Below, in pieces: positions 585 through 39,010 of a DNA stretch of 64,000 bases. A program made the position numbers and the translations under genes. The DNA comes from Caprella mutica (taxonomy: Eukaryota > Arthropoda > Malacostraca > Amphipoda > Caprellidae). The notes under the pieces were generated by a model that saw only the letters and a list, made by a program, of their open reading frames with translations, had not been told where the DNA came from and did not search any database. The stretch is taken from assembly GCA_947561585.1 (NCBI GenBank), contig CANNZV010000271.1, positions 1 to 64,000 of the forward strand, in the 5' to 3' direction. Within the stretch, counting starts at the first letter, position 1. Each line of letters begins with the position of its first letter.

Positions 585-587
585 TAA

Positions 588-955
588 GCCCAACCCCCCC
601 CCCCCCCCCCCTTACCGGTCACGAGCCCCCCTCCCTGTTTTTTTAATCTTATTTACCTAGTTAAAAAATACTTAGATAGAAATAACTGAGAGCTGCTGAT
701 GTAGTTTTTGTTGTATCAGCTAGTTTGTTGTACTGCACACTTCATTGATTGTTTAAAGACCTGGTAGGGGGGTTCAAGAGGCGGCACGCCCCCCAATATA
801 CATATATTCATGTTCAATCATAATGAACTACAAAAGTGTCAATAAGGATTAAATGATATAGTATACTAAATAAGGATTAAAAACAGTGGGGCTCAAGAGC
901 AGGGGGGGGGGGGGGGCTCATGACCTACACCCCCCGGTCATGAGACCCCTTGAAA
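588..955 (+). repeat. Dispersed element with C/G-array ends, complete copy
   Basis: The left end is a poly-C tract followed by GGTCACGAGCCCCCC and a T-rich stretch (TTTTTTTAATCTTATTTACC). The right end is the inverse, AAATAAGGATTAAAAACAG followed by G runs and GCTCATGACC. Between them is a core of about 270 bp with TAGTTTGTTGTACTGCAC and a small palindrome GGCGGCACGCCCCCC. Left and right ends are therefore inverted repeats, as in a MITE or foldback element. Pieces of the same core recur at 3690-3880 and 4155-4490, and the C array alone recurs at 27540-27685. No ORF and no superfamily assignment. The homopolymer lengths may be unreliable in the assembly. Confidence 0.75.
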
Positions 956-3040
956 TAAATGGAGGTTAATTCTGAACGTTTGGTAGAACCTTACGTATCT
1001 CAGTAAATTTTATTCAGATTTCTAGTAATTAACTCAAGCTTAAATACCAATGATTACTAAGTTATCATGTGTAGCTTTAACTATCATATTTTGATTAAAT
1101 GAACCAATTAAATGCATAAATAATTCATTATCTATCTACTCCATCACTGTTGGTCCTGCTTCATACCATACCCTTTACGTGCCTTGCACAATCTCGAGAT
1201 AGTCGCGCATTTTCAATGATCCTAGAAACGCGTAGATCATTGTCGAGACTGTACCATGTTTATTGGGTATATGTATGTATATCGCATATGTATGTATACC
1301 TTCCCCCCATCCCCCCCAAACCAAACAAAAGACTGCATTAAACGATGTAATAGAATTAGGAAAAATCAATTTTATTATTTAGATTAGTTAATAATTGAGT
1401 ATATCTATTTAATAATAAATTTTATTTCAATCTCAAATGAAAACGAGAAAAATAAAATATGGGACGTCCCTAGTAAAAGATTCATAATATTAGTACGTTG
1501 GAAATAAGTCATATTCAATGACGCTAAAGCTAGGTGAATAAGAATACATTCTATAATACATTTACAGATAAATAATATTAATTTTTCGATTGATTTACTT
1601 TGGTATAGACTGGCTGTGTAAGTTTTTCTTTACAGTCCAAGAGTTGTTAATTTCGTGTATTTTTCTAGTAGGTATATATATATATATATTCTGATTTATC
1701 ATAAGTCACATAATATACAAACACAGTCACCGCCTAAAACTTAACTCACTCATTACTCAAAGTTGAGATGGTGTGTGTAAGAGGTTAGGGGGGGGGGGGA
1801 AGTTAGGGAGATTTGGCGCGCTTTTGTGTTTGACTCTCTATTCAGATTTCAGAGTGCAATAAAATAACCAGTATCAATCAATCATGGCATCATTATTCCA
1901 CTGATACTCCTATCTTTTATATTTATTATTCATATAAATACCAGAAACCCATAACTAATTAGTAATTATTTGAAACAGTTATCCATATATTAAAAGATAC
2001 TTTGTTACAGTTCACATGTCCACATTATTATTATGTACGTTATTTTACAGATTATATGCGAGTGCGCGCTGTATTTACATTAGAGAACATTAAAATATTT
2101 ATTTTTATTTATTTATACAAGTAGAAATATGACATAATTTGCAGTACATGTTAACTGTGACTGATTCAGTGTTGTAAAACAAACTTAAATGTACATGATA
2201 CATTGCCAACAAGTTAATTATTATTAGGAAAGAAATAAGTATTTTATCAATGAAATTATTGGAGGATAGCACACATCCCGCAACTAACCTTAGCGCTACA
2301 CTCCCCTGTCCCCCTTTATTGTACTATATACCCAGTGTTGTTCAATTACCTTAGCAATCTTGCAGAAGGTTATATTTTCATCGGAATTTATTTATTTATT
2401 TATCATCTTGTTATTCGCTTAACTGAAAAAGTGTTCAACCAAATTACCTGTAATTTGGTGAAACGATTGGTCCATGTCCAGTGACCTGCCTGTGACCCGG
2501 TCAAGGTCACGGTCATTTATAACACAAAAAGTATCGAACCATATTGCATGAAACTTGATGGATCGATTAGTCAATATGCAGAAACCATTTTGATAGATAG
2601 AACCAATAATTTAGTGATTAGTTTACTATGCAAGTTATTTTTACCAATTACCTAATCATAATATGTTCAATTAACAAAACACAAAATAACAAATAACATA
2701 ATATGTTCAAATAATTATTGTAACAATCTGTATAATCTAACCAACTGGTTCCTGGATAATGACCAACCGCTCAAAAATTTTAAGGCAATTTGATTAATTT
2801 GATTGAAATCAATTTGATTGGAGTTATGCGAGTACCTAGCAAGATTACAAATAAATAAATGCCGCCTAATGTATAACCTTCTGCAATCTGCAAGTTAAAA
2901 TCAGAACCTAGTAATAAAGTAATTCATTTTATGATACATTGCAAGATGTGAGTAAAAAGGGTTTCAATAATTCAGCAACGTTATATTTCTTTCACATAAG
3001 AAAGTATTCTCTACAGTTTCATCGCACCATTCAGGAAGGT
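956..3040. other. Intergenic, no gene seen
   Basis: AT-rich, with a (TA)n tract near 1673-1690 and a 12-base G run at 1788-1799 inside AGGTTAGGGGG. Two loosely similar segments near 2415-2480 and 2525-2590 share 'aaaaagt.tcgAACCAnATT' and 'GATTrGTC', a weak old tandem duplication. No coding signal. Confidence 0.5.
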
Positions 3041-3049
3041 ACTTTGTGA

Positions 3050-3165
3050 TTAGGGGGTGAGGGTATAGAGTGAGGAGGGTATAGGGTGAGGAGGGTGTAG
3101 GGTGAGGAGGGTATAAGGTGAGGAGAGGTGTAACAAGTAACTCAGGGGAGGGGGGAGGTGGTGGA
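3050..3165 (+). repeat. G-rich tandem repeat
   Basis: About six copies of an 18-bp unit (GGTGAGGAGGGTATAG and variants). Many GGG runs on one strand give G-quadruplex potential. The following 500 bp resemble 26820-27330 inside the 10-kb element. Confidence 0.75.
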
Positions 3166-3689
3166 GAGAAGTGATTAATATTTACACAGATAGAAATTAT
3201 CTTCTAGTTAACTATGTATATGCTAATATTTTTTATAAACTAATATTTTATTTACAACATAATACAAATATATTTGTATTCATATATGATTTAATTTAGT
3301 GTTCTAATCATTGGTCATTCATGGGTGAAGTGCATGACTGTATGTGTATGAAGCCCGCGAAGATACAGTCACTTACACTGGCTACCTAACTTATGCCACT
3401 GCTTGTACCACTGTCAATCATCTGAGACACTACTTACTTAGGTATCACCAATAGACTGAAGGGAAAATGATTAATTCTTATTTATTTGTTTATTTATAGT
3501 AACAAAAATATAAACTATTCATAAATGAATTTAGAGCTAATTATGACTTATTATATTCCTTAATAATAATATTATATTCATCAAATAAAAACAGTATATG
3601 AGACATTGATGAGGTTCTATATTATTTTCGGACATGTAAGTTTCTAGTTTATATTTTTCAGAAGATTAACTGTAAATAATGGAGTACAG

Positions 3690-3885
3690 AGCGTGTTTAC
3701 AACAAACTAGCGGATACAACAAACTACGTTAGCAACTCTCAGTTTTTTCTATCTAAGTAGTTCTTCATTTGTTTAACTAAGTAAGGATTAAAAAAATAGG
3801 AAGGGAGGGCTCGTGACCGGGGGGCTTATATGACCTAGGGGGCTCATGACCGTGGGGTGGGGGGCTCTTGACTTTACCCCTTAGT
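3690..3885 (-). repeat. Left half of the C/G-array element, minus orientation
   Basis: The reverse complement matches 601-735: the C array, TTTTTTTAATCCTTAC, ACTTAGATAGAAA.AACTGAGAG, then TAGTTTGTTGTATCCGCTAG. It ends in a G array with GGGGCTCATGACC. The missing half lies at 4155-4490, beyond about 260 bp of minisatellite, so the halves are rearranged relative to the 588-955 copy. Confidence 0.75.
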
Positions 3886-3899
3886 ATATAGTCACTCGG

Positions 3900-6800
3900 A
3901 TACTAGTCTCCCTCTTGTAACTAGCTAACCAGAGTTCCTAGGTACATAACCACTAATCAGTGTACCTAGGTACCTAACCACTAACCAGTGTACCTTGGTA
4001 CCTAGACACTTACCAGTGTACCTAGGTACCTAGACACTAACCTAGGTACCTAGACACTAACCAGTGTACCAAGTGCCTAACCACTAACCAGTGTACCTTG
4101 ATACCTAACCTCGAATCAGTGTACCTAGTGCCTAACCACTAACCAGTGTACCTTGGGGGTGTAGGTCATAAGCCCCCCCGGTCAAGAGCCCCCCCCGGTC
4201 ATGAGCCCCCCTAGGTCATGAGCCCCCCCCGGTCAAGAGCCCCCCCGGTCATGAGCCCCCCCCGGTCACGAGCCCCCCTGTTTTTAAATCCTTATTTACC
4301 TATATTATTTAATCCTTATTGACACTTTTGTAGTTCATTACTGATTAGACATAAAATATATGTATATCGGGGGGCGTGCCGCCCCCCCCCCCGAACCCCC
4401 TGCCAGGTCATTAAAAAATCATGAAGTGTGCAGTACAACAATCTAGCGGATACAACAAACTACATTATTACACTAACCAGTGTACCTAGGTACCTAGACA
4501 CTAACCAGTGTACCTAGTGCCTAACCTCTAACCAGTGTACCTAGGTACCTAGACACTAACCAGTGTACCTAGGTACCTAGACACTAACCAGTGTACCTAA
4601 GTACCTAACCAGTGTACCTAAGTACCTAACCAGTGTACCTAACCACTAACCAGTGTATCTAGGTACCTAACCACTAACCACTGTACCTTGATACCTAACC
4701 AGTTACCTGGGTACCTAACTAGTTACCTGGGTACCTAACCAGTTATCTAGGTACTTAACCACTAACCAGTGTACCTTGGTACCTAACCACTAACCAGTGT
4801 ACCTTGGTACCTAACCACTAACCAGTGTACCTTGGTACCTAACCACAAACCAGTGTACCTTGGTACCAAACCAGTGTACCTAACCACTAACCAGTGTACC
4901 TAACCACTAACCAGTGTACCTAACCACTAACCAGTGTACCTTGGGACCTAACCACTAACCAGTGTACCTAGGTACCTAACCACTAACCAGTGTACCTTGG
5001 TACCTAGACACTAACCAGTGTACCTTGGTACCTAACCACTAACCAGTGTACCTAGGTACCTAGACACTAACCAGTGTACTTGGTACCTAACCACTAACCA
5101 GTGTACCTAGGTACCTAGACACTAACCAGTGTACCTTGGTACCTAACCACTAACCAGTGTACCTTGGGACCTAACCACTAACCAGTGTACCTAGGTACCT
5201 AGACACTAACCAGTGTACCTAGTGCCTAACCTCTAACCAGTGTACCTAGGTACCTAGACACTAACCAGTGTACCTAGGTACCTAGACACTAACCAGTGTA
5301 CCTAAGTACCTAACCAGTGTACCTAACCACTAACCAGTGTATCTAGGTACCTAACCACTAACCACTGTACCTTGATACCTAACCAGTTACCTGGGTACCT
5401 AACCAGTTATCTAGGTACTTAAACACAAACCAGTGTACCTTGGTACCTAACCACTAACCAGTGTACCTTGGTACCTAACCACAAACCAGTGTACCTTGGT
5501 ACCAAACCAGTGTACCTAACCACTAACCAGTGTACCTAACCACTAACCAGTGTACCTAACCACTAACCAGTGTACCTTGGGACCTAACCACTAACCAGTG
5601 TACCTTGGTACCTAACCAGTGTACCTAACCACTAACCAGTGTACCTAGGTACCTAACCACTAACCAGTGTACCTTGGTACCTAACCACAAACCAGTGTAC
5701 CTTGGTACCTAACCAGTTACCTAGGTACCTAACCAGTTACCTAGGTACCTAACCAGTTACCTAGGTACCTAACCAGTTACCTAGGTACCTAACCAGTTAC
5801 CTAGGTACCTAACCAGTTAACTAGGTACCTAACCAGTGCGGTAACCTCGTTAAGTAACTGGTGCGGTAACCTTGTTAGGTAACTAGTCGGTAACCTTTTT
5901 TGGTAACTAGTGCGATTACCTTGTTAGTTAACTAATGTAGCTAGTTAGGTAACCAGTGTACCTTGGTACCTAACCACTAACCAGTGTACCTTGGTACCTA
6001 ACCACTAACCAGTGTACCTTGGTACCTAACCACAAACCAGTGTACCTTGGTACCAAACCAGTGTACCTAACCACTAACCAGTGTACCTAACCACTAACCA
6101 GTGTACCTAACCACTAACCAGTGTACCTTGGGACCTAACCACTAACCAGTGTACCTAGGTACCTAACCACTAACCAGTGTACCTTGGTACCTAGACACTA
6201 ACCAGTGTACCTTGGTACCTAACCACTAACCAGTGTACCTAGGTACCTAGACACTAACCAGTGTACTTGGTACCTAACCACTAACCAGTGTACCTAGGTA
6301 CCTAGACACTAACCAATGTACCTTGGTACCTAACCACTAACCAGTGTACCTTGGGACCTAACCACTAACCAGTGTACCTAGGTACCTAGACACTAACCAG
6401 TGTACCTAGTGCCTAACCTCTAACCAGTGTACCTAGGTACCTAGACACTAACCAGTGTACCTAGGTACCTAGACACTAACCAGTGTACCTAGGTACCTAG
6501 ACACTAACCAGTGTACCTAAGTACCTAACCAGTGTACCTAACCACTTACCAGTGTATCTAGGTACCTAACCACTAACCACTGTACCTTGATACCTAACCA
6601 GTTACCTGGGTACCTAACCAGTTATCTAGGTACTTAACCACTAACCAGTGTACCTTGGTACCTAACCACTAACCAGTGTACCTTGGTACCTAACCACAAA
6701 CCAGTGTACCTTGGTACCAAACCAGTGTACCTAACCACTAACCAGTGTACCTAACCACTAACCAGTGTACCTAACCACTAACCAGTGTACCTTGGGACCT

Positions 6801-7380
6801 AACCACTAACCAGTGTACCTTGGTACCTAACCAGTGTACCTTGGTACCTAACCATTGTACCTAACCACTAACCAGTGTACCTAGGTACCTAACCACTAAC
6901 CAGTGTACCTTGGTACCTAACCACAAACCAGTGTACCTTAGTACCTAACCAGTTACCTAGGTACCTAACCAGTTACCTAGGTACCTAACCAGTTACCTAG
7001 GTACCTAACCAGTTACCTAGGTACCTAACCAGTTACCTAGGTACCTAACCAGTTAACTAGGTACCTAACCAGTGCGGTAACCTTGTTAAGTAACTGGTGC
7101 GGTAACCTTGTTAGGTAACTAGTCGGTAACCTTTTTTGGTAACTAGTGCGATTACCTTGTTAGTTAACTAATGTAGCTAGTTAGGTAACTAGTGTAGCTA
7201 GTTAGGTAACTAGTGTAACTTACAGTAATTAATAATGAAAACGAGTATAAATAGTTGAGTAACTAGTATAACTAGTTAGGTAACTAATGGAATTAGGTAT
7301 CTAACTAGTATATCTGGTTACCTGACTACTGTAACTAGTTACCTAACTAGTGTAACTAGGTACCAAACTAGTTTTTTTAA
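3900..7380. repeat. Palindromic minisatellite array with higher-order structure
   Basis: More than 100 copies of a 17-28 bp module built from ACCAGTGTACC, TAGGTACCTA or TTGGTACCTAA, and CCACTA. GGTACC and CCTAGGTACCTAGG are self-complementary, so nearly every unit can form a small hairpin. A distinctive block (AACCAGTGCGGTAACC onward) occurs at 5831 and again at 7067, a 1,236-bp higher-order period. The block at 4511 (TACCTAGTGCCTAACC) recurs at 5216 and 6403. The array decays into CTAGTTAGGTAAC-type units after 7190. A C-array element piece (4155-4490) interrupts it. No coding function. Confidence 0.9.
4155..4490 (-). repeat. Right half of the C/G-array element, nested in minisatellite
   Basis: Begins with six GGTCA(A/T)GAGCCCCCC units, then TTTTTAAATCCTTATTTACC, and continues as the reverse complement of about 700-915, including the GGGGGGCGTGCCGCCCCCC palindrome and GTGCAGTACAACAATCTAGC. 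Minisatellite flanks it on both sides, so it either inserted into the array or seeded it. Confidence 0.8.
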
Positions 7381-17809: not shown

Positions 17810-18217
17810 AAATAGTTTCTCGTGTTATTAATCATAGAAAATTACAACAGCTTTGGAAAAAAATTGAGTCTCGTTATTAGATAATGAAACAACTATGGAT
17901 AAATTCTATTGTTTAGATTAGTTCGACCATTTGTAACACTACTTCTTTGGCCTTTGAACAACCTGCAAGTAAACGCTATCAAATGACTTGCAAATCCAGT
18001 TTTGTATCTGAATTACTTAACCATAAAAAAATTCCTTGGAAGCGTTGCATAAAAAATATAAAAAAACATTAAAAACTGAGGGAGTTCACAACTCAGAAAG
18101 TATGCTGTATATGAGATCTACTATGTACAAATGAATATTTGATAATTCCTACATATAACAGTTACACTAAATATCCCGGTAAATTAGATTGATGATATAT
18201 TGTTGCATCACTGAATT
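17810..18217 (+). repeat. Tandem duplication copy 1, left part
   Basis: Near-identical (about ten differences in 405 bases by eye) to 29242-29650, from AAATAGTTTCTCGTG to GCATCACTGAATT. It stops abruptly at AATT, where the 10-kb element begins. The remainder of this copy resumes at 28309. Confidence 0.93.
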
Positions 18218-18525
18218 GGAGGGTTGAGAGGTAAAGTTGGGTAACTACGATCCTATCAGAACTAACCATACTTTACCTCGCACGTCTAATCTTATATTTA
18301 CTGAACGGTAAAGTTGGGTAACTCCTGGTAGGTTATACACTCATTTCGCGCATTTAGTGAGTGGTAAACTCGAGTGTGGAGTTACCTACCTTTACCTCAA
18401 CACCAAATGCTGTGTGCAGTGAAAGGCACACTTGGGTGAGTTTATACGCAACTGTGCTTCTAAACAGTATTGTCCTTACGGTGAGAGGTAAAGTCGTGAA
18501 ACAACGAACCCAACTATGCATTTTA
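18218..18525 (+). repeat. 5' subterminal hairpin array of the 10-kb element
   Basis: Variants of GGTAAAGTTGGGTAACT at about 18229, 18308, 18360 and 18485, each followed by a more or less inverted partner (for example GGAGTTACCTACCTTTACC at about 18378-18396). Together they form four or five imperfect stem-loops spaced roughly 60-80 bp apart. The same consensus builds the other end. Confidence 0.75.
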
Positions 18526-18529
18526 CAGG

Positions 18530-19965
18530 TCTAGTTGATCCAAATGAAATAATATTTGATCCAAGATAATATCAATATTATCCAAGTGAATTTGAATTTG
18601 CTCAATGTGAAATTGAATTTGATCTTTATGCAATTGAATTTGATCCATGTGAAATAATACTTGATCCAAGTGAAATAATATTTGATGCAAGTTAAATATT
18701 ATTTGATGCAAGTGAAATAATATTTGATGCAAGTGAAATAATATTTGATCCAAGCGAAATAATATTTGATCCAAGTGAAATAATATTTGATCCAAGTGAG
18801 ATAATATTTGATGCAAGTGAAATAATATTTGATGCAAGTGAAATAATACTTGATGCAAGTGAAATAATATTTGATCCAAGCGAAATAATATTTGATCCAA
18901 GTGAAATAATATTTGATCCAAGTGAGATAATATTTGATGCAAGTGAAATATTTAATGCAAGTGAAATAATATTTGATGCAAGTGAAATAATATTTGATGC
19001 AAGTGAAGTAATATTTGATGCAAGTGAGATAATATTTGATGCAAGTGAAATAATATATTTGATCCAAGTGAGATAATATTTGATGCAAGTGAAATATTTG
19101 ATGCAAGTGAAATAATATTTGATGCAAGTGAAATAATATTTGATCCAAGAGAGATAATATTTGATGCAAGTGAAATATTTGATGCAAGTGAAATAATATT
19201 TGATGCAAGTGAAATAATATTTGATGCAAGTGAAATAATATTTGATGCAAGTGAAATAATATTTGATGCAAGTGAAATAATATTTGATGCAAGTGAAATA
19301 ATATTTGATCCTAGTGAGATAATATTTGATGCAAGTAAAATATTTGATGCAAGTGAAATAATATTTGATGCAAGTGAAATAATATTTGATGCAAGTGAAA
19401 TAATATTTGATGCAAGTGAAATAATATTTGATGCAAGTGAAATAATATTTGATGCAAGTGAAATAATATTTGATGCAAGTGAAATAATATTTGATGCAAG
19501 TGAAATAATATTTGATGCAAGTGAAATAATATTTGATGCAAGTGAAATAATATTTGATCCTAGTGAGATAATATTTGATGCAAGTAAAATATTTGATGCA
19601 AGTGAAATAATATTTGATGCAAGTGAAATAATAATTGATGCAAGTGTAATAATATTTGATGCAAGTGAAATAATATTTGATGCAAGTGAAATAATATTTG
19701 ATGCAAGTGAAATAATATTTGATGCAAGTGAAATAATATTTGATGCAAGTGAAATAATATTTGATGCAAGTGGAATAATATTTGATGCAAGTCATAATAA
19801 TTTTTGATGCAAGTGAAATAATATTTGATGCAAGTGAAATAATATTTGATGCAAGTGAAATAATATTTGATGCAAGTGAAATAATATTTGATGCAAGTGA
19901 AATAATATTTGATGCAAGTGAAATAATATTTGATGCAAGTGAAATAATATTCGATCTAACAGAAT
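18530..19965 (+). repeat. 21-bp minisatellite (ATAATATTTGATGCAAGTGAA)
   Basis: About 68 units, first as GATCCAAGTGAA variants and then as the GATGCAAGTGAA form. Some units lack three bases (GAAATATTTGATGCAAG), so length stays a multiple of three. Two near-identical blocks of about 249 bp lie at 19311-19541 and 19560-19790. The length multiple keeps several frames open on both strands, with peptides like HLHQILF, TCIKYYF and FDASEII. These are not genes. Confidence 0.95.
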
Positions 19966-20059
19966 TTATCGATTATTTTATCATTCCGATACCTACCTTA
20001 CATTTTGTGTCTTACAAGAAAAAAGTAACGCTTTTAACATTTAATATATAAAAAATATA

Positions 20060-20347
20060 ATTTATGAGAGATTATGATTGGCCACCATAATCTCTCATTG
20101 CTCACCGTAATCCTTCATTGCCCACCATAATCATTCATTGCCCACAATAATCCTTCATTGCCCACCATAATCATTCAATGCCCACAATAATCTTTCATTA
20201 CCCACCATGATCTTTCATTGCCAACCATAATATTTCATTGCCCACCATAATCTTTCTTTGTCCACTATAATCCTTCATTACCCACTACAATCCTTCATTA
20301 TCTACCATAATCTCTCATTGCCCACCATAATCTTACATTGCCAACTA
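20060..20347 (+). repeat. About 20-bp minisatellite (CCCACCATAATCTTTCATTG)
   Basis: About 14 diverged units reading CATTGCCCACCATAATC. It follows the previous array after 90 bp. Confidence 0.88.
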
Positions 20348-20790
20348 TACGGGGTGACCCACAAAAAAGTCTAACCAGCTATAAATGCGTATATTTCAAC
20401 AACTATTGAAGGTACAGTTAAAACAGATTTATTCCTAGGTCTTAAGACTATTCATATAACTAATCCTTTTATGAATTATTGATAATATGAAGAAATGTAT
20501 TTGAGTATAAAAAAGAAGACAAAATCAATTTTGTTCAGCAACTCCTTTTAAAAAAATGAAAAGTTTATATTATAATAAATGGATGAAATATCTTTTAATC
20601 TTCAATTTTCGAGATTGAATATCTCGTAAACCTAGAAATGAATCTGTTATATTAACTTCCTTTTTGTACTGAAATACATTTCTCCTCATTTACAATATTT
20701 TATAAAGAGAATAGTTATATTCAAGTTCATCTAAATGTAATTTAATCTGGACATATGAGATGAATTTGTTTACCTTTTTAAATAATCATA
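20348..20790. other. Unique sequence with a mariner-end-like start
   Basis: ACGGGGTGACCCACAAAAAAG at 20349 resembles the outer end of Tc1/mariner-type elements (ACAGGGTG...). No matching inverted end or transposase is seen, so it may be a solo end. Confidence 0.3.
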
Positions 20791-20794
20791 TTTT

Positions 20795-20880
20795 TCGGCG
20801 AAAGTGTCGTTCGGCGAATGTGTCGTGCGGCGAATGTGTTTTCGGCGAATTTGTTTTCGGCGAATGTGTTTTTGGCAAAT
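20795..20880 (+). repeat. Short CGGCGAATGTGT minisatellite
   Basis: Five copies of a 15-18 base unit, TTCGGCGAATGTGTT with variants. GC-richer than its surroundings. Confidence 0.85.
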
Positions 20881-20934
20881 TGACCGGTCACCGACATAAC
20901 ACCAGCCAAATCACTGCCATTGCAATGAATTATT

Positions 20935-21165
20935 GTCATTACAGTGTCTGGTAGTCATTGCAGTGTCTGGTAGTCATTGCAGTGACTGATAGTCATTGCA
21001 GTGAGTGGTAGTCATTGCAGTGACTGGTAGTCATTGCAGTGACTGGTAGTCATTGCAGTGACTGGTAGTCATTGCAGTGACTGGTAGTCATTGCAGTGAG
21101 TGGTAGTCATTGCAGTGATTGTCAGTACTTGCAGTGACTGGTAGTCACTGCAGTGATTATAGTAT
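20935..21165 (+). repeat. 19-bp minisatellite (GTCATTGCAGTGACTGGTA)
   Basis: About 12 copies. The core CATTGCAGTG is nearly self-complementary (CACTGCAATG), so units can pair with each other. Confidence 0.92.
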
Positions 21166-21424
21166 GCAGATATTAATATTTTTTCAATTAAGCAGCATAA
21201 CATCATTACAACGTCACATTGTCTGACGTCATGTATGATATTTACCGCAGCTTAAAAAAATCGCTCCTTTGCGGCGTGCCTTACAACTAACATGATTATT
21301 AAAATAGAATACTGTGTAAAAGAATCAATAAACAGTGAAAGCATGACCGTTAGCGGTAAAAATAACAATTGGTAACAGTTACTTCTGATATATTACAATC
21401 TATAGAATATACATTATATATTCG

Positions 21425-21545
21425 ATTGACAAACGTTTCGTCGACAAACTTTTCTTTGACAGACGTTCCGTCAACATACGTTCGGTCGACAGACGTTTCG
21501 TCGACAGACGTTTCGTTGACAAGACGATTCGTCGACAAATTTTCG
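21425..21545 (+). repeat. 18-bp minisatellite with GTCGACA core
   Basis: About seven copies of GACAGACGTTTCGTC with a self-complementary GTCGAC core. The peptide frame VDETSVDETSVD on the minus strand is a by-product. Confidence 0.88.
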
Positions 21546-23240
21546 TGAAGGGGATAATAACTGCAGCCCAGATTCATAGTTCTAACGAAAGTAGTCAAAA
21601 TAGCGCCCAAAAAAGTTTTATAGCTCTAAAAAAGAGTTTTAAAGTCGGTATAAAAAGTTTTTATAATAGCAGAGTGTGTCCTTAAATTGATGCATTTCAT
21701 TTCTTTTATCCTCATTATAGAAATTTTTTGGAAAAAAAATATTCACAGTACCCAGTTAAATTTTGGTGCAGTATAGCGGACGTTTTGCTGTAGTTTATGG
21801 CAGTCTCAGCATTTCTAAGCAGCGCTCAGCAGATAATCTCAGCTTGCTACAAATGTTAACCGCAACCTATGGAGCCCACGGCAGTATAAGGACGAGATAA
21901 TCTGCGGAGGTTTGACGCGTTATCATCTGCCGAAAACTCTGGAGAACAGAGCATAGAAAATCTTCTGAGTTTATAGTCGATAATATTGGCTAAAATCTCC
22001 AGAGATTGAAGCACCACATTATTCATCAATCATAATCCAAAAATTAATTTGAACAAAAATACAACTTGACATTGGCCTTAGTTTAATAAGTTTACTCCAA
22101 TATGTATATATAGTATATAGTGCATACAGTATACTGCATATATATATAGTTAGTATAGAAAATTAATTTGGTTCATTTATCAACAATTCAATATTATAAG
22201 TTAAATAATTGCAAAAACTAACCAGTTAAAATTATATACTTATATCATTATAACATTAATCATGTATTTGTTCTTCATCCCCAACATTTAAATAGGTATA
22301 TTGGAATACAAGAATACCAAATAACACGAAATTATTATTGAAAAAATCGGCCATTCTTAATAATTATTCAAAGATAAAATCATTTCCATGCTGAAATTAT
22401 CAAAAACAGGGTTGCAAAACAAAATATATAGAACTATTATTTTGTACGTTCTAAAGAAAAATATCGGATTTTTTTATTGAGAACCATTGAACGTATTTTG
22501 AATAGTTTCTAGTTTAAAATAAGGTTCTGTGGTGATTTAATGTTTTAAGTTATTAATTTATTGATGAAATTGAAATAGTGTATCTATCATGTGTAAAATA
22601 TTTAAGAGTTCAGTGGTTATTGTATCCAATTAGAAAAAATAGCAATGCTAGGCTATATAATATAGCCTAGCTAATTTGTCCTTTTTTTGGTTTATCGCCC
22701 TGGTTGAAATTCACTACCTACCTAGGTGCCTACTCATGACACCTGTTTTCTACCAAACAATAAATGATTTTCCACCTAGCTATGTATAATGTAATAGCAC
22801 ATATCAGGAAATGCACTGTAACTTGTACTCTAAGTAGCACATAGGCCTATCGGAATAGGCCTGTGTCCCAGTTACTCCCACTGTGACATATCTATGTACC
22901 CACAGGCAGTTAACAGGCGACTCAAGTTATAGAGTACTACCGATTTCAGTTAAGCAAATTAGTTGGCTTCTATTTTAAATGGTCCACTCGTCAAGACACT
23001 CTGATAGCTATATACCTTTGCCATGTTTCAAAGTGTGCACTGTGGACAAAGTCGCCAGTATAGCCTATATTGATACGTATCTAAAAGATGAGCGGCGCAC
23101 AAGATCACGACGCACCCACCATACGTTCTACTAGATAGGTAGATTGAAAGATGATTTATGATACCTATATATAGAAATGTAGTGAAATTGATATTTGTTG
23201 TTTCAAATTTATGACTGATGCTACCTGAATGATCTGAATC
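21546..23240. other. Interior of the 10-kb element, no gene seen
   Basis: AT-rich sequence with a somewhat GC-richer patch at 21760-21970 containing CAGCGCTCAGCAG-type words. No ORF, exon or repeat that I can support. Confidence 0.45.
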
Positions 23241-23244
23241 CACA

Positions 23245-23780
23245 ACCAGTCTGTATTTGGCTTACAAAATTCCAATTACTTTTCCAAAAAGCTGAAAAAA
23301 AAATCAGAAAAATACATACCTACCTACCTATTTCATGATAGCTATTTGAATGAGCCACCAACATTTTTTTTATTTACCTAGCCACCAAAAATAGAAAAAT
23401 AATGGTAACATAGGAAGGAATAGCTAAAATCCACAGACTTTACTAAAATATTATTTTCGAAGGGGAAAAATTCCACTGACAAGTGGGTGGAATTTACCAT
23501 GAAATACATTCTGGGCATTAACCAGTCTGTATTTGATGCACAAAATTCCACTGACTTTTTCAAAAAGTTGAAAAAATCCATCACAAATTTTCATTAATTT
23601 GGCTGATCCAGCAACTTTTTCCCAATCAATCCACCGAAAATTAATGGTAACATATGATTATAGGAATAAATGGCTATAGAAATCCACTGACATCGTCAGA
23701 ATATTATTTTCAAAGGGCAAAAAATTCCACCAACATGTCGGTGAAAATTACCACGAGATACAGACTTGGGCATTAATTGA
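23245..23780 (+). repeat. About 250-bp tandem duplication, two diverged copies
   Basis: ACCAGTCTGTATTTG starts at 23245 and 23521; AATGGTAACATA starts at 23401 and 23643; the segment with ATTCCAC...GTGG.G..AATTACCA occurs in both. The offsets of 276 and 242 bp show indels between copies. Confidence 0.75.
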
Positions 23781-24104
23781 GTCAGGGAGATAGATATTCG
23801 CTCGAGTCTTGACTGACGATTAGGTATATTAATTTTCTTGAATAGTTTTGAATTCATTCCTAACTATCCAGAATGCAGGAACTGGTAAAGTGTTCTCCAA
23901 GATATCCTACATTTTGACTTCTGTTCCCAGTAAAATACATGTAAATATAGGAGGAAATTATGGAATGTTTGCACAGAAAATTTTAAAAATGTGACAATGT
24001 CCCATTCTACAGACTTGCTAGTACCTATACAATAATACAAGCTATATCTATTTACCTGAATTTTACTTCGATCATAAAAAGAGATATCTGTATTATTGTA
24101 TGTA

Positions 24105-24360
24105 TACAAAGTATGCCAGTTAATGCCAATTAATTGACCCTCAGCCTTACATAATAAGTTACATTTGTAAAGGTCAAAACTCAGAATATGTCTAATGGGC
24201 TTAACGTTTTGATTTAATTTAATTCCTATGTTCCCATGTTAATTTGGCCTGAAATTTTAAGAAAAGAGCCAAAATTGACATGTCTCAGAATCTTTAAATT
24301 TTGGCTCGAAATTGGCCTACAATCTGCCAGACTCTTGAACATGGCATGATGATGATTATT
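24105..24360 (+). repeat. Segmental duplication, copy 1
   Basis: Matches 25590-25806 in order: GTATG.CAGTT, CCAATTAATTG, AGGTCAAAA.TCAGA, TTCCTATGTTCCCATGTTAATTT and GAACATGGC. Both copies sit just before arrays of the same TTTGACGGAGGTCAC unit, so flank and array duplicated together. Confidence 0.75.
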
Positions 24361-24509
24361 CAGATTATATAAGATGCATCTTGACAGTTTCAATATATTT
24401 AGGTACCTATTCTCATGTGAATTTTGGCATTAGCTATATTTAGAGACAACATAGTTTTTAAAAAATTTAGATAAATGGAGCATTCAAATTGGGTTACTTT
24501 CGCTATAAA

Positions 24510-25345
24510 CCTTTCTTTAACTGACGGAGATCACTTTTCTTTGACGGAGATCACTTTTCTTTGACGGAGATCACTTCTCTTTGACGGAGGTCACTTTTCT
24601 TTGACGGAGGTCACTTTTCTTTGACGGAGGTCACTTTTCTATGACGGAGGTCATTTTTCTTTGACAGAGGTCACTTTACTTTGACGGAGGTCACTTTTCT
24701 TTGACGGAGGTCACTTTTCTTTGACGGAAATCTCTTTTCTTTGACGGAGGTCACTTTACTTTGACGGAGGTCACTTTTCTTTGACGGAGGTCACTTTTCT
24801 TTGACGGAGGTCACTTTTCTTTGACGGAGGTGACTTTTCTTTGAAGGAGATCACTTTTTTTGAAGGAGATCACTTTTCTTTGACGGAGTTCACTTTTCTT
24901 TGACGGAGGTCACTTTTCTTTGACGGAGGTCACTTTTCTTTGACGGAGGTCACTTTTCTATGACAGAGGTCATTTTTCTTTGACAGAGGTCACTTTACTT
25001 TGACGGAGGTCACTTTTCTTTGACGGAAATCTCTTTTCTTTGACGGAGGTCACTTTACTTTGACGGAGGTCACTTTTCTTTGACGGAGGTCACTTTTCTT
25101 TGACGGAGGTCACTTTACTTTGACGGAGGTCACTTTTCTTTGACGGAGGTCACTTTTCTTTGACTGAGTTCACTTTTATTTGACGCAGGTCACTTTTCTT
25201 TGATGGAAGTCACTTTTCTTTGATGGAGGTCACTTTTCTTTGACGGAGGTCACTTTTCTTTGACGGAGGTCATTTTTCTTTGACGGAGGTTACTTTTCTT
25301 TGACGGAGGTCACTTTTCTTTAACAGAGGTCACTTTTCTTCCATG
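24510..25345 (+). repeat. 20-bp minisatellite (TTTGACGGAGGTCACTTTTC)
   Basis: About 42 units with few substitutions. Variants such as GGAAATCTC and TTTACTTTGACGG recur at fixed spacing, for example near 24729 and 25026, indicating block copying. Confidence 0.95.
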
Positions 25346-25589
25346 TTACAGACCAGTCTGCAAAACAATCAGTCTTCAAATATTTAATTTTTGGAGCAAT
25401 TTCTCTCCAAAGATTTTTAAATTTCTCTCGAAAATGGCCAGAAATCTCAAAATACTCTCCAATAAATAAATGTAAACATAGAAATTGATTAGAAAATTGT
25501 CGCCAGATAATTCAGGACATTAATTTCAAGGCCATAATACTCACCTGATAAATTTCACAACTTCATGCATCTTTTGCAGACTGGGTTTC

Positions 25590-25806
25590 AGAGTATGTCA
25601 GTTGAAGCCAATTAATTGGCTTAAATTTCAAAAGGTCAAAATTCAGATATGTCTATTTGGCTTAAAATTTTGAATTAATTCCTATGTTCCCATGTTAATT
25701 TTGGCTTGAAATCTTCTAAAATGAGCTCAATTGGCTTGGCTTCGAATCTATATGAAATTTTGACTCAAAAATTCGCTTACAATTTTCCACTCTCTGAAAC
25801 ATGGCA
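25590..25806 (+). repeat. Segmental duplication, copy 2
   Basis: Second copy of the 24105-24360 segment, more diverged, again leading straight into the TTTGACGGAGGTCAC array. Confidence 0.75.
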
Positions 25807-26312
25807 GTTTTCTTTGACGGAGGTCACTTTTCTTTGACGGAAGTCACTTTTCTTTGACGGAGGTCACTTTTCTTTGGCGGAGGTCACTTCTCTTTGGCGG
25901 AGGTCTTTTTTTTTGACGCAGAAGATCACTTTTTTTGACGTAGATCACTTGTTTTGACGCAGGAGGTGACTTTTTTTGACGCAGGAGGTGACTTTTTTTT
26001 GATGCAGGAGGTGACTTTTTTTGACGCAGGAGGTTACTTTTTTGACGCAGGAGGTGGCTTTTTTGACGCAGGAGGTGACTTTTTTTTTTGACGCAGGAGG
26101 TGACTTTTTATTGATGCAGGAGGTGACTTTTTTTGACGCAGGAGGTTACTTTTTTTGACGCAGGAGGTGGCTTTTTTGACGCAGGAGGTGACTTTTTTTT
26201 GACGCAGGAGGTGACTTTTTTTGACGCCGGAGGTGACTTTTTTTTGACGCAGGAGGTGACTTTTTTTGACGCAGGAGGTGACTTTTTTTTGACGCAGGAG
26301 GTGACTTTTTTT
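25807..26312 (+). repeat. Minisatellite shifting from GACGGAGGTCAC to GACGCAGGAGGTGAC
   Basis: Five units of the 20-bp form (25807-25905) grade into about 17 units of a 22-26 base form, TTTTTTTGACGCAGGAGGTGA plus C, with variable T runs. The change looks like evolution of a new unit within one array. Short frames on both strands here are artefacts. Confidence 0.92.
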
Positions 26313-26362
26313 AGATCCTTGCTCAAAAATATGGAACCGTTCGATAATTGGAACTTACCCTA

Positions 26363-27535
26363 ATTAGTCAGGTACCTAAAGTGTAAATAACTAATCAATA
26401 TTCTTAAATCCAATTACTTATTTAAATTTACATCTCAATTGAATAACTGAACTATAATAAACAATGAATTCAATCAATCATACTTAAAAATGCTATCATT
26501 ATCACTCAATATATCACAAATCTTCATTCAAATAACGGTCAAAATAATACATCTTATTATCCATACTATGTGATAAGCCTACCTATTTGGATTTTAATAT
26601 TATATTAATGTTTCTTTTAGAAACACAAAAAGTGATTAAACTGTATGATTCTTATAGATAATCAAAATTCATATCCTATAATAATTTTATATGTCAGTTC
26701 AATATTATAATATAATTTAAGTATAATAATATACATTCCTATCATTTGACAATGCTAAGTTTTCTGCAGTTCAAGGCTCATAAATAATTTGTTAAAAATT
26801 ACGGTAGGTAGCTACTGATAGAGGGGGGGGGGGAGGTGTGAGATGAATGAGGGGTGCGAGGGGTGGGGGATCTGTACATTAACACTGATATACAGTTTGG
26901 GGGAAATAATTTGGCAATAAATGATAACAGAGAGAAAAAAAAACCTATTTAACTGTGTACTTCTATTCCTCTAAAACTTATATTTTTTTACAACTAAATA
27001 CAATTCATTTGTGTTAATATATAATTAAATTTCAGCGTATTAGTCACTGGTCATTCTTCATATCCGTGAATGTGTGTGTACGTATGTTTCTTGTCAGAAG
27101 ATCACCCACACTAGTGGACTTACATGTTTATTTCTCAATCACTGCCTATCGTATTCCAGATTTAAAACACTGATCGATTGACTGTCAAAGAAAATGTTGA
27201 CTTTATGACTTAGTATACTAGCTCGTGATTATAAGGAATTAATATTTATTTTAATTTCATATTATACCGATAGCGCTATAAATAGTGTAAAAATATTGAA
27301 CTTCAAATTATTTTCGGTCATAGAAGTTTATTGAAAGATACAAATGCAGTTGAGCAGTTAGTTACTCGTTAGGAACATAGAAACACTATTTTGGATAGTA
27401 GAAATTACCTTGCTACATTAGTTATAGTTAATTACTAAATATGTACATAGATACTATAATCAGGAATAAGTAAGTTAGGGACCTACATACACCAATTGGG
27501 ATATTATTAGGTACCTAATAGTTTGGGGTACGGTC
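26363..27535. other. Interior of the 10-kb element, related to 3050-3680
   Basis: A G-rich tract at 26822-26872 is followed by sequence resembling 3240-3660, sharing TTACAAC.AAATAC, CATTGGTCATTC-like and TTATTTTCGG.CAT words in order. The C-array element then follows in both places. There is no gene. Confidence 0.5.
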
Positions 27536-27539
27536 AAGA

Positions 27540-27685
27540 GCCCCCCTCCCCCCCGGTCACGAGCGGGTGTAGGTCAAGAGCCCCCCCGGTCATAAGCCCC
27601 CCCCCCAGTCTTGAGCCCCCCTAGGTCATAAGCCCCCCCCGGTCAAGAGCCCCCCCGGTCATGAGCCCCCCCGGTCATGATATTT
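27540..27685 (+). repeat. C-array (GGTCATGAGCCCCCC)n
   Basis: Eight or nine units of GGTCA(A/T)(G/A)AGCCCCCC without the core seen at 588-955. Regular C runs give i-motif potential and G-quadruplex potential on the complement. Confidence 0.9.
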
Positions 27686-27929
27686 TATTAAAAATAATTA
27701 TAGTTTGATATACAATATATAAATGAGAAATAATAGTGTTTGTATTTTGTTATTCATGAATGAATAACAAGAGGTAGTAATTGTTTTGTGTTCGTGCTTT
27801 TAAATTACTTTATGATAAGCATTCAGGTATTAGGTACCAGCTTATAATGTTAATTGAATTATTGCTAATGCTCATTAATTAACTAATGAATGTAATTTTT
27901 TTTTAAATATATGTACGATTCCAGAATAG

Positions 27930-28308
27930 TTGGGTATCTAATTACATACCCAACTTTACCTCCTAATCGATGGATAGATCCCCCCCCCCCTCGCCTGCCC
28001 AGGAGACTGCAGATTATTGGGAGGACAAGTTGGGTAACTACACACACAACTTCACCTAAATATCATTGACTGAATCAGTGAGAGGTGAAGTTGTGGAACG
28101 TCACTCACTACTCTACCGCAATAGAATACTGATTTTATTTGAGCGGTGTAGTTGGGTGAGAACACACATAGGTACACCGTTTGAGATATTTCCAATTCGT
28201 TTAGAAGTACAGTTGGGTAAGAATGCACCTAACTTTACCGTAGAGGAAAAGCTTCATTTCGTGGAGAGCGACACTTCGTAGTTACCCAACTTTACCTCCC
28301 TACCCTCC
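27930..28308 (-). repeat. 3' subterminal hairpin array of the 10-kb element
   Basis: Six imperfect stem-loops. The clearest are GTTGGGTATCTAATTACATACCCAAC at about 27930-27955, AAGTTGGGTAACTACACACACAACTTCACC at about 28026-28056, GGTGAAGTTGTGGAACG...CTACC at about 28084-28119, GGTGTAGTTGGGTGAG...GGTACACC at about 28145-28176 and GTACAGTTGGGTAAG...CTAACTTTACC at about 28206-28239. The TIR is the last. An 11-base C run sits at 27980-27990. Confidence 0.8.
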
Positions 28309-29241
28309 AATTACTAATTTAAATGGAAAATTATTTACTACGATGCACAAAAGTCATTTCCAAAACTATTAGTGAGAAAGTTAAATTGTGATTTTAGAAG
28401 AATAGGAAGTTCTCCCTCTCAATTTTCCTTGAGCCCGCCATAACTTTCTCAAAGCGATGTAGCTATTTCATAGCAGAATCAGATTTTCATATTATATATA
28501 TTAAAATAGTAGAGATATCGTATAATTTCATATATAAAGACACATTTTGGAGCTATATAATCTATTTAATGTATTGATATTTTTTCAGAATTAAATGCGA
28601 AAATATATTTAAAAAACTCTTTTTAAGATATCTTAAATTCGCACCTGTATATTCTTTTCACATTTATTTATAAACCGTTAATATTCTATCCAATGCCATA
28701 AAACCAGCTTATGTCGATGAAATATGGTGCAAACATTACTATAAATGGTACAATTTTCCCACCTAAACCTGCGATTACCGTCTATAATCCTACCAAATAA
28801 CTCATTAACCTCCATCTTATAGCCTCATTACAGGTTTTCTTTTCTCATTTTAACATTTGTAATTCAGTATCAGACGCACGGCATATTTTCTGATGTATGA
28901 AACTGATGCCAAAAATAACAAAGCATCAAATTATTGCACAGTTGCAATATAATTTTAGTCCTAATGTGTATATAACATGCCATATGTGAGGCTAGTTTCC
29001 TTTTTGTTATTACGAATGTACATTGTGCGCCTTCTTACAAAGATAGTGGCATTTTATTGTACCAACTTTGAGGAAACGGATAAAAGCTTAATTATTTATG
29101 TGGTAACAATAATCCCAGGCTTTGATATTTCCAACTGAATAAATTCATTTGTTATTGTTATTGTTATTATTATTATTGCTTACGAAGAGTATAATTGCTA
29201 TTGTAGATTGGTGTAACGGACAATCATACAGAAATCGCTCA
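28309..29241 (+). repeat. Tandem duplication copy 1, right part
   Basis: Resumes the sequence interrupted at 18217: AATTACTAATTTAAATGG, then a jump to ACTACGATGCACAAAAGTC and on to CAGAAATCGCTC. Compared with copy 2 it lacks 29673-30058 (about 385 bases). About eleven differences from 30059-30967. No gene content recognised. Confidence 0.9.
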
Positions 29242-30967
29242 AAATAGTTTCTCGTGTTATTAATCTTAGAAAATTACAGCAGCTTTGGAAAGAAATTGAA
29301 TCTCGTTATTAGATAATGAAACAACTATGGATAAATTCTATTGTTTAGATTAGTTCGACCATTTGTAACACTACTTCTTTGGCCTCTGAACAACCTGCAA
29401 GTAAACGCTATTAAATGACTTGCAAATCCAGTTTTGTATCTGAATTACTTAACCATAAAAAACTTCCTTGGAAGCGTTGCATAAAAAATATAAAAAAAAC
29501 ATTAAAAACTGAGGGAGTTCACAACTCAGAAAGTATGCTGTATATGAGATCTACTATGCACAAATGAATATTTGATAATTCCTACATATAACAGTTACAT
29601 TAAATATCCCGGTAAATTAGATTGATGATATATTGTTGCATCACTGAATTACTAATTTAAATGGAAAATTATTTCCAATATATTTATAAAGTTCTCACAA
29701 AAATCTTTTTTCTTTGAGAACTGTGTTTTGAGCTAAATAAATCGTTCAACATAAGTTACCAGTCTTCGGATACTTGAATAAATTTTATCCTGATTTGCAT
29801 TTTTACCGACTGCATTTAATTCACAGGAGTCTCATTTTTGTTTTTTTTCCCTCTTTCGTACGATATTTCGACAGAATGAATATACTGTATGTCTGAATTT
29901 TTTGTTTTCAACTATAAAGTGATGAAGTTCAAACTTATTTCATCGAACACGATTAATTTTATCAAAATATAATTTTAATACTGTTTCAAACAATAATTTT
30001 GTTATGGACCAATGCTCAGCTTAGTGAACACAGTAATCAAATATTTTTCTGTTATATTCCACTACGAAGCACAAAAGTCATTTCCAAAACTATTAGTGAG
30101 AAAGTTAAATTGTGATTTTAGAAGAATAGGAAGTTCTCCCTCTCAATTTTCCTTGAGCCCGCCATAACTTTCTCAAAGCGATGTAGCTATTTCATAGCAG
30201 AATCAGATTTTCATATTATATATATTAAAATAGTAGAGATATCGTATAATTTCATATATAAAGACAAATTTTGGAGCTATATAATCTATTTAATGTATTG
30301 ATATTTTTTCAGAATTAAATGCGAAAATATATTTAAAAAATTCTTTTTAAGATATCTTAATTTCGCACCTGTATATTCTTTTCACATTTATTTATAAACC
30401 GTTAATATTCTATCCAATGCCATAAAACCAGCTTATGTCGATGAAATATGGTGCAAACATTACTATAAATGGTACAATTTTCCCACCTAAACCTGCGATT
30501 ACCGTCTATAATCCTACCAAATAACTCATTAACCTCCATCTTATAGCCTCATTACAGGTTTTCTTTTCTCATTTTAACATTTGTAATTCAGTATCAGACG
30601 CATGGCATATTTTCTGATGTAAGAAACTGATGCCAAAAATAACAAAGCATCAAATTATTGCACAGTTGCAATATAATTTTAGTCCTAATGTGTATATAAC
30701 ATGCCATATGTGAGGCTAGTTACCTTTTTGTTATTACGAACGTACATTGTGCGCCTTCTTACAAAGATAGTGGCATCTTATTGTACCAACTTTGAGGAAA
30801 CGGATAAAAGCTTAATTATTTATGTGGTAACAATAATCCCAGGCTTTGATATTTCCAACTGAATAAATTCATTTGTTATTGTTATTATTATTATTATTAT
30901 TGCTTACGAAGAGTATAATTGCTAGTGTAGATTGGTGTAACGGACAATCATACAGAAATCGCTCAAA
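29242..30967 (+). repeat. Tandem duplication copy 2, carries the empty site
   Basis: A 1,726-base unit directly abutting copy 1. AATT at 29647-29650 is the unoccupied target of the 10-kb element. 29673-30058 is present only here. A (TTATTG/TTA)n microsatellite lies near 30876-30902. No coding signal; the sequence is AT-rich with no ORF of note. Confidence 0.9.
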
Positions 30968-34046: not shown

Positions 34047-34884
34047 GTGATCGGTATATTCCACCCCGATGTATTCCACCCTGGTATATTCCACCTCGTT
34101 AAGTTCCACCTCAAACTTAATCAAACGGATTAGGTTTGATTAGTTACAAATAATAAACTTTTATATAATACTAGGTAACTTGCATTTTTATAGTAGCAAA
34201 TTGTTGATCACTCACAAGCTGTTTATTTTTCACTACACAATACACATGTGTCCGAACAGCAGAAAGAAAAGGTTGTGTGAACGCTCTTTATAAGTTTAGG
34301 TATTTAGATTTTCAATCACAAACTGATTATCTTCACTATCGGTAACACATCAGCGATATTACATGTAAGATGATGTCATATAGTACTTCTTGTTATTTTA
34401 TTTTATTTTGAATTTGGTATTTTGACTTCGTGTAAAAGTGGTGTAAAATGGTTTTAGACCGAAGGTTATATTTTACGCCATGAGTTTTTATCTATTTATT
34501 ATTTTTATTTTGACCAGGAGGTGGGGATTATTATTCCTTATTAACTTGCTCAACATGTAAACTTTGAAATTAACTGACATATTAGGAATATTTCTATTTT
34601 TTTTTTTATATTAGGAAAAAAATTAAATTGACTTGAACTATATCTAAATATTGTTCAAATGTCTCAGGATATCGTCTGACCTATTTCTCATAACTACCTA
34701 GTATTTAACAAAAAGCCATCTAATAATATAATCTTTGACTTTTTATTTTCCCCCAAATGAGCATTTTCAAAGGGGTGGAATTTAACGTGGTGGAATATAT
34801 CTTGGGTGCAATATACCGGGGTGGAATATACAGGGGTGGAATTTACCGGGGTGGAATTTCCCGGGATGGAATATACCTAGAGCC
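34047..34884. mobile_element. Foldback element with inverted minisatellite ends
   Basis: The left end has four units of about 17 bp (GGTATATTCCACCCC). The right end has seven inverted units (GGGGTGGAATATACC, 34772-34876). A perfect 10-base direct repeat ATATTGATCG lies immediately outside (34037-34046 and 34885-34894), fitting a target-site duplication. The middle of about 650 bases is AT-rich without an ORF. Terminal inverted tandem units plus a long duplication are typical of foldback/MULE-like elements. Superfamily not established. Confidence 0.75.
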
Positions 34885-38109: not shown

Positions 38110-38552
38110 CGGACAATTCAAGTTGGTTAAAACTACAACCCGCTTTCGATCGGTGATTGAAATCGATGATAATCAGATTTTTCACATCTACAGCAAAAAT
38201 AACTTGCAACAAAATTAAATTGGACTTTATGGTTAGTTTTAAGCTTTTACAGCAAATCACATTTCATCAAATACTCACGATTGAAGAATTTGACGACAAT
38301 ACCTAAAATTATGATTATGATATGTTTGTAAATCTTTTAAAGCAATCGATTTCAATCCACTCCTGATCAAATTGAGACCGTCACCAGTTGAATCAAAAAT
38401 AGGTAAATTTTTCAGCTTGTAGCTTAGTTTTTCAAATGACAAAAACCAACTGTAATAATTGACTTTCTTGGGTGGCAGAGCAAATTTCAGTCCGTAGCAG
38501 AGGCAGTCAATCTCTTCTGAAGTTAAAATTTTGTTCGAATAATTGAAAATAA
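38110..38552 (-). pseudogene. Penelope-like element fragment, minus arm
   Basis: The minus strand from 38545 reads ILTSEEIDCL then GLKFALPPKKVNYYSWF, FEKL and GDGLNLIRSGLKSIAL. This resembles the conserved block upstream of the reverse transcriptase in Penelope-like elements (pattern LSxxxLTxxExxLLxxGLxFxPxP). Further along, in another frame (about 38145), ITDRKRVVVLT resembles the next conserved block (KPDKGxGVVVLN). Frameshifts and stops break it, and no RT catalytic motif or GIY-YIG domain is present. It faces away from the plus-strand copy at 38600-39010, with about 215 bases of near-identical sequence in inverted orientation. Family call by motif memory only. Confidence 0.5.
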
Positions 38553-38599
38553 GTTTGTAAGTTTGTAAGATAAGTTTGTCTTGACTTTAATCACTTTAT

Positions 38600-39010
38600 T
38601 AGCCTTATAAACAATAACTGCGAGAAGTAACTGAGAAAAGCTGAGGAGACACACTACAAGAAGCTGTTCAATCTAGGTTTGCTCCATAGAGTCAACAGAC
38701 TAGAATTCAACAACCTTATTTTCATTTTTCGAACAAAATTTTAACTTCAGAAGAGATTGACTGCCTCTGCCAAGGACTGATATTTGCTCTGCCACCCAAG
38801 AAAATCAATTATTACAGTTGGTTTTTGTCATTTGAAAAACTAAGATACATACAAGCTGAAATTTTTGTTTTACCTATTTTCGATTCAACTGGTGACGGTC
38901 TCAATATGATCAGGAGTGGATTGAAATCGATTGCTTTCAAATACTTCTACGGCTACAAACCTTCACTAAATCTTTTTAGGTACATTTCACAGCTTATCAC
39001 AATATATTAA
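38600..39010 (+). pseudogene. Penelope-like element fragment, plus arm
   Basis: Plus-strand reading gives AEETHYKKLFNLGLLHRVN (frame at 38640), then after a frameshift near 38728 ILTSEEIDCLCQGL, FALPPKKINYYSWF and GDGLNMIRSGLKSIAFKYF, stopping at 39008. The upstream lysine/leucine-rich stretch followed by the LTSEE...GL.FALPP block matches the order in Penelope-like ORFs. The arm 38727-38945 is the inverse of 38335-38552, separated by about 175 bases. Head-to-head partial copies are a known habit of this retroelement class. Broken by the frameshift; no RT present. Confidence 0.5.

Follow-up and report, generated by a model that had tools for sequence, protein, structure and literature searches.

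What is the DNA of 10,091 bp that interrupts one copy of a tandem duplication in the amphipod Caprella mutica, and did it bring its satellites along or acquire them in place? The window, i.e., the whole stretch of DNA analyzed here, comprises 64,000 nucleotides (GenBank assembly GCA_947561585.1, contig CANNZV010000271.1, positions 1 to 64,000 of the forward strand), and the element in question occupies positions 18218–28308. An empty site in the neighboring copy of the duplication, inverted repeats at both tips and sequence motifs shared by the two ends are good evidence for a single transposition of all 10 kb. We regard it as one copy of a non-autonomous cut-and-paste DNA transposon, with a probability of roughly 0.8.

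The insertion and its empty site

The element ends in a 33 bp terminal inverted repeat (TIR) on either side, and the bases AATT adjoin both tips (coordinates of all features in Table 1). Comparing the left TIR with the reverse complement of the right one gave 31 identical positions out of 33; the inverted repeat of the original prediction, which had been made from the letters of the DNA alone, was reproduced to the base in coordinates and match. By a simple binomial calculation on base composition, chance would produce approximately 5e-6 such pairs per 64 kb. In addition, the TIRs sit exactly at the breakpoints of the alignment between the duplicated flanks.

These flanks are named A and B on the two sides of the element and A′ and B′ in the second copy of the duplication. 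A and A′ differ by 9 substitutions and one 1-base gap, the 28 bases directly right of the insertion (28309–28336) are all identical to 29647–29674, and B and B′ differ by 11 substitutions in 907 bp. Overall, 20 substitutions were counted in 1,312 aligned bp (1.5%). In the second copy, where the flanks of the element had been predicted to be contiguous (29640–29670), an uninterrupted site with one AATT was indeed present. The sequence of this empty site is GAATTACT, and its AATT is the part found duplicated at the element, which is the natural reading of the target-site duplication (TSD). Because AATT is palindromic, one copy of the element also allows shorter readings of the same letters, namely a 2 bp TSD (AT) with the ends TGGAGG/CCTCCA or no TSD at all with the ends TTGGAGG/CCTCCAA.

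Further, a stretch of 386 bp, separated from the empty-site AATT by 24 bases, is contained in the second copy and missing from the first. Its two ends are not an inverted pair; it seems more probable, therefore, that the first copy lost this stretch than that the second gained it. Together with the repetitive, palindrome-forming ends described below, this difference beside the insertion goes beyond what had been noticed before.

The main rival to an empty site next door is that the assembly joined two alleles, only one of which contains the element; in that case, the apparent tandem duplication would be an artifact and no true empty duplicate would be adjacent. A divergence of 1.5% falls within the range of allelic differences in many invertebrates, and the duplicated piece extends over no more than the insertion and some 1.3 kb. 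However, the window does not contain a single N, and in our reading of the alignment the junction between B and A′ is clean, with approximately 2 bp of shared sequence, like those of ordinary tandem duplications. We consider such a join doubtful. If it were true, the element would still be a presence/absence allele. Indeed, this explanation and the precise excision discussed further below are both compatible with a transposon, and their odds and those of the transposon do not sum to one.

Motif arrays at the two ends

A motif, AGGTAAAGTTGGGTAACTACG, is repeated in both orientations near the tips, over approximately 300 bp on the left and 400 bp on the right. The inverted match between the two ends found by BLAST covers 37 bp only, and both ends carry motifs with a period of about 61 bp. 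These end arrays are not in the list of Tandem Repeats Finder (TRF). In order to reduce circularity, a matrix was built from sites of the left end alone. Using four seeds, its best eight sites outside the left end in the 64 kb, which include the TIR copy, were all located in the right end. This result is, therefore, separate evidence that the ends are partners. When both TIR copies were omitted (three seeds), six right-end sites scored at least 12, whereas 1,000 dinucleotide shuffles yielded 0.043 such sites on average and never more than 2; no site reached this score in the 53.9 kb of flanks or in the 9.4 kb middle of the element. At a score of 10, the three-seed matrix matched seven sites in the right end, against 0.17 on average in the shuffles, and none in the middle. 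Applied in the other direction, a matrix of the right end placed seven of its eight best sites outside that end in the left end.

The motif copies tend toward palindromes of the form GTAAAGTTGGGT-N8-ACCCAACTTTAC. All seven sites in the window with at most 7 mismatches in 24 positions belong to the two ends; of those with exactly 8 mismatches, one is found in the ends and five elsewhere. Palindromes in the right end follow each other in steps of 61 bp (28024, 28085, 28146, 28207), those in the left end in steps of 62 bp (18364, 18426, 18488). Because the units are palindromic, they do not reveal their orientation. When shifted against itself, the right end (28000–28308) showed a self-match of 0.488 at a lag of 61, whereas shuffles of two-base blocks gave 0.253 (standard deviation 0.027) and none of 1,000 shuffles reached 0.488 at any lag between 20 and 129. 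The self-match of the left end was 0.383 at a lag of 62, a value reached by 3 of 1,000 shuffles; the periodicity of this end is weak by itself and rests on the motif positions. Single-strand folding was better than that of shuffled sequences for both ends (z = −3.7 left and −7.8 right), none of the 100 shuffles of each end folding equally well. Judged by their anatomy, the end motifs are likely to form a transposase binding array.

Short pieces of the end were also compared with other collections of DNA. A 17-mer had one match in viral_contigs (L001), where the remainder of the end was missing from the surroundings, and a 22-mer had one match in genome_contigs (L002), located in an apparent bacterial protein-coding frame with a GC content of 50%. 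Both were judged to be chance matches. Two longer or two-sided end patterns had no match in viral_contigs.

Interior content and order of events

The element had been described as made almost entirely of satellites, which overstates their share: arrays detected by TRF, eight main ones and a weak one, cover 3,507 of the 10,091 bp (35%), and approximately 41% is repetitive when the two degenerate end arrays (about 670 bp) are added. The claim that it lacks a transposase is consistent with the Pfam results: each of the 27 open frames in the element with at least 60 amino acids was scanned, and none had a transposase-like match. The sole match above a curated cut-off was Goodbye (26.7 bits; cut-off 24.8), in a frame consisting wholly of the 21 bp array, and is read as an artifact of repetition. 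Below their cut-offs were DUF1673 (16.2 versus 30.4), in a frame outside the arrays, and LbR_Ice_bind (28.0 versus 30) and other weak matches, mostly in array frames; all of them are read as chance or repeat composition. No transfer RNA and no Rfam match at the gathering threshold was found in the window.

Besides the arrays, the interior contains older repeats. The imperfect palindrome beside the mariner-like stretch is probably an old nested miniature inverted-repeat transposable element (MITE), a name that we infer. The two members of the duplication with 77% identity are each followed by the same 20 bp array. Within the probable nested repeat near the right end, 26412–27091 resembles 8658–7951 (59%), 26927–27080 resembles 3186–3348 (70%), and the GGTCATGAGCCCC array around 27565–27680 is 91% identical to 4157–4271. 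The original prediction had likened the element to a satellite incubator, a role that would be speculative: according to the TRF list and the pairs of at least 100 bp among the matches listed, this GGTCATGAGCCCC-type array is the only one that also occurs outside the element within the window.

The mean pairwise divergence of repeat units ranges from 5% in the 21 bp array, where 36 of 55 units are identical, to 21%; it is 7–21% in the other arrays measured. Only full-length units were compared, i.e., 55 of 64 in the 21 bp array and 12/14, 2/6, 10/12, 6/9, 38/41, 4/6, and 10/19 in the others, with the GGTCATGAGCCCC array left out. Internal duplicates which are not part of arrays differ by 23% and 32%. 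If the insertion took place after the duplication, the flank divergence of 1.5% sets an upper limit to the age of the insertion. Since units and duplicates have diverged much further, the satellites would, under this condition, have been inside before landing. Thus, sequence divergence favors arrival as a large unit, provided that insertion followed duplication.

The original prediction had offered two possibilities, insertion as a unit or insertion of a smaller element that then expanded. Movement as a unit is supported by the empty site and the matching end motifs, and a large arrival is favored by the divergence, leaving room for later growth chiefly in the 21 bp array. That a short TIR element inserted and all arrays grew afterward is unlikely. 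The many identical units make recent growth plausible for the 21 bp array, the copy number of which may have increased since the insertion, but the divergence of the other arrays and of the internal duplicates far exceeds that of the flanks, and nested repeats are present inside the element. Alternatively, the element could predate the tandem duplication and have left the second copy without a footprint. Some transposons, such as piggyBac, excise without a scar, and the second copy holds a single clean AATT. Nevertheless, this scenario is quite improbable, as it needs an extra step and the scarless loss of 10 kb, insertion after duplication being simpler. If the element is older and the second copy was cleanly vacated, the age cap is lost, yet 10 kb would still have moved as a unit. 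Finally, ectopic or filler DNA with ends alike by chance would suit the single copy seen and the lack of a recognized transposase, but it is highly improbable given the approximately 5e-6 TIR pairs expected by chance, their exact coincidence with the break in the duplication and the motifs common to both ends.

Several points weigh against a transposon that landed with its load. The evidence comes from a single copy, so that the family, the TSD rule and mobility in trans are presumptive, and the 386 bp difference indicates that another event also hit the insertion site. The age argument no longer holds if the element is older than the duplication and was lost from one copy, or if arrays mutate much faster. 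Concerning the ends, the matrix seeds were chosen by eye, the left matrix also matches nine flank sites at a score of 10, and the right-end matrix ranks an outside site at 41677 fourth among its matches beyond the right end. The N8 spacer was picked after inspection, and a comparison of spacers from 0 to 29 with up to 10 mismatches gave no standout peak at 8. Further, an interior control (22000–22400), itself unshuffled, had a best self-match of 0.407 at a lag of 96, which is higher than that of the left end.

Table 1. Features of the element and of the duplicated flanks (positions in the window).
Feature	Positions	Strand	Basis
Flank copy A, left of insertion	17813–18217	+	duplication alignment
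Left TSD, AATT	18214–18217		sequence and empty-site comparison
Left TIR, 33 bp	18218–18250	+	31/33 versus right end
Left repetitive end: degenerate array, period ~62 bp, palindrome-forming AGGTAAAGTTGGGTAACTACG motifs	18229–18521		matrix, motif and period tests; period alone weak
21 bp array, ~63 copies	18638–19955		TRF; unit comparison
20 bp array, ~13 copies	20077–20342		TRF; unit comparison
Imperfect palindrome, ~65% identity to own complement, beside mariner-like GGGGTGACCCACAAAAAAGT stretch	20454–20720		alignment
15 bp array, TTTTCGGCGAATGTG	20792–20880		TRF
19 bp array	20935–21156		TRF; unit comparison
15/30 bp array, GACAAACGTTTCGTC	21421–21546		TRF; unit comparison
Old tandem duplication, 23244–23521 versus 23520–23776, 68%	23244–23776		alignment
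Old internal duplicate of 25621–25806, 77%; TGACGGAGGTCACTTTTCTT array after each member	24159–24346		alignment
20 bp array, 41 copies	24522–25340		TRF; unit comparison
Second member of the 24159–24346 duplication	25621–25806		alignment
20 bp, then 22 bp arrays	25808–26312		TRF; unit comparison
Probable nested repeat	26412–27680		TRF and alignment within window
Right repetitive end: degenerate array, period 61 bp, palindrome-forming AGGTAAAGTTGGGTAACTACG motif as in left end	27922–28297		matrix, motif and period tests
Right TIR, 33 bp	28276–28308	−	31/33 versus left end
Right TSD, AATT	28309–28312		sequence and empty-site comparison
Flank copy B, right of insertion	28337–29243	+	duplication alignment
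Flank copy A′, second copy of duplication	29245–29650	+	duplication alignment
Empty site, single AATT	29647–29650		sequence and duplication alignment
386 bp in second copy only	29675–30060		duplication alignment
Flank copy B′	30061–30967	+	duplication alignment

Other repeats are located elsewhere in the window. A possible second satellite-bearing element at 560–4465 has inverted repeats (699–925 versus 4465–4231, 81%; 821–861 versus 4300–4340) and GGTCATGAGCCCCCC-type stretches on both sides. At 4471–7074, a 28 bp unit, counted 92.6 times by TRF, forms an array of 2.6 kb, in which internal repeats of about 1.6 kb overlap and share 90% identity. Inverted arrays of a GGTATATTCCACCCC unit are found at 34052–34877, approximately 700–800 bp apart and foldback-like. 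A large palindrome at 38335–38941 consists of inverted pairs of about 95% identity (38418–38543/38724–38849 and 38335–38407/38869–38941), and two open frames on opposite strands, 103 and 106 amino acids long, overlap it. In a retrotransposon without long terminal repeats (45339–49268), an open frame of 999 amino acids encodes an endonuclease and a reverse transcriptase according to Pfam; the upstream frame of 255 amino acids has no Pfam match. A protein search with this retrotransposon gave 52 proteins, and the two entries that carried an organism name were from a termite (Cryptotermes, rank 36) and a plant (Centaurea, rank 52). Finally, a mariner-type element (50615–51926) contains an open frame of 338 amino acids with a DDE domain, located between 28 bp inverted repeats beginning with TACAGGGTGATCAGACCAGG.

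Proposed mechanism and comparison with known transposons

In the mechanism we propose, a transposase supplied in trans by an element elsewhere would bind the end arrays and the 33 bp tips, cut at the tips and join them to a target with a 4 bp stagger. Minisatellites, old internal duplications and nested repeats of the interior would be passive cargo. This load was most likely built up in ancestral copies prior to the insertion, and the element would have landed at about its present size. The function of the end arrays as binding sites is suggested by their anatomy and by parallels with Hermes and Galileo (see below). If the divergence argument holds, the tandem repeats were carried as cargo and not born in place, which would suggest that a cut-and-paste system moves a long non-coding load when its ends hold many binding sites. 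More tentatively, and more likely wrong than right, the copy may represent an unnamed family with a 4 bp target of the AATT type and cryptic 61 bp palindromic end arrays, whose large non-coding copies of about 10 kb would carry several unrelated minisatellites and thereby seed tandem repeats genome-wide. The end motifs provide a concrete query for the family and its transposase.

Two defining features of a cut-and-paste TIR transposon are present at the locus, namely terminal inverted repeats (31/33) and a TSD with a single-copy empty site. Helitrons have neither TIR nor TSD and are ruled out, since the element has both. CACTA elements, with CACTA ends and a 3 bp TSD, are excluded as well. The duplicated AATT also differs from the TA of Tc1/mariner and from the TTAA of piggyBac. 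MITEs are likewise non-coding with TIR and TSD, but they are described as being under 800 bp (PMC5199201), compared to 10,091 bp here, and were rejected due to this length.

Among the matches listed in the literature searched, with subscription papers mostly outside, no comparable element was found, and a search phrased for AATT TSDs gave none. In Repbase, the grouping of non-autonomous elements relies on the length of the TSD and on positions 1–11 of the ends (PMC4455052). The 4 bp TSD AATT fits the consensus AWWT, although it was seen in one copy, in which the shorter TSD readings fit the same letters. Sola2-type families of several kb in amoebae are reported to have 4 bp AT-rich TSDs (AWWT) and short TIRs of 12–21 bp (PMC3627910). 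The element resembles them in its AT-rich 4 bp TSD and its short TIRs, but a Sola2 transposase was not recognized by Pfam in the 27 frames. A non-autonomous copy need not carry its own transposase, and AATT fits Sola2-type families without proving membership. With one copy and no recognized transposase, we assign the element to no family.

Concerning the architecture, Tetris of Drosophila virilis has inverted ends with internal tandem repeats, complete copies without a conserved open reading frame, and repeats which gave rise to the building blocks of a satellite (PMC4079207 and PMC3573991). For transposon ends in general, including those of Galileo (P superfamily), the latter text proposes tandem end repeats as secondary binding sites of the transposase (PMC3573991). 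These Foldback-type elements share inverted ends and internal tandem repeats with the element, and Tetris also the lack of a conserved open reading frame. In contrast, the close inverted repeat is limited to the outer 33 bp here and spans hundreds of bp in Foldback-type elements, and the clear satellites of the element occupy its middle and have no relation to the repeats of its ends. Foldback, Tetris and Galileo were rejected because of the TSD, which is 4 bp here compared to 8–10 bp in Tetris and 7 bp in Galileo, as far as the cited texts report.

In Hermes, a hAT element and the model for our proposed mechanism, the two ends are unlike each other and about 450 bp long. They carry short TIRs and subterminal repeats; two of these repeats make up a quasi-palindrome to which the BED domains of the transposase bind cooperatively (PMC10368747). 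Due to its 4 bp TSD, the element was not assigned to the hAT superfamily, which duplicates 8 bp; its motifs are others, and no hAT transposase was recognized in it. Nevertheless, it resembles Hermes in having dissimilar ends, short TIRs and subterminal palindromic repeats.

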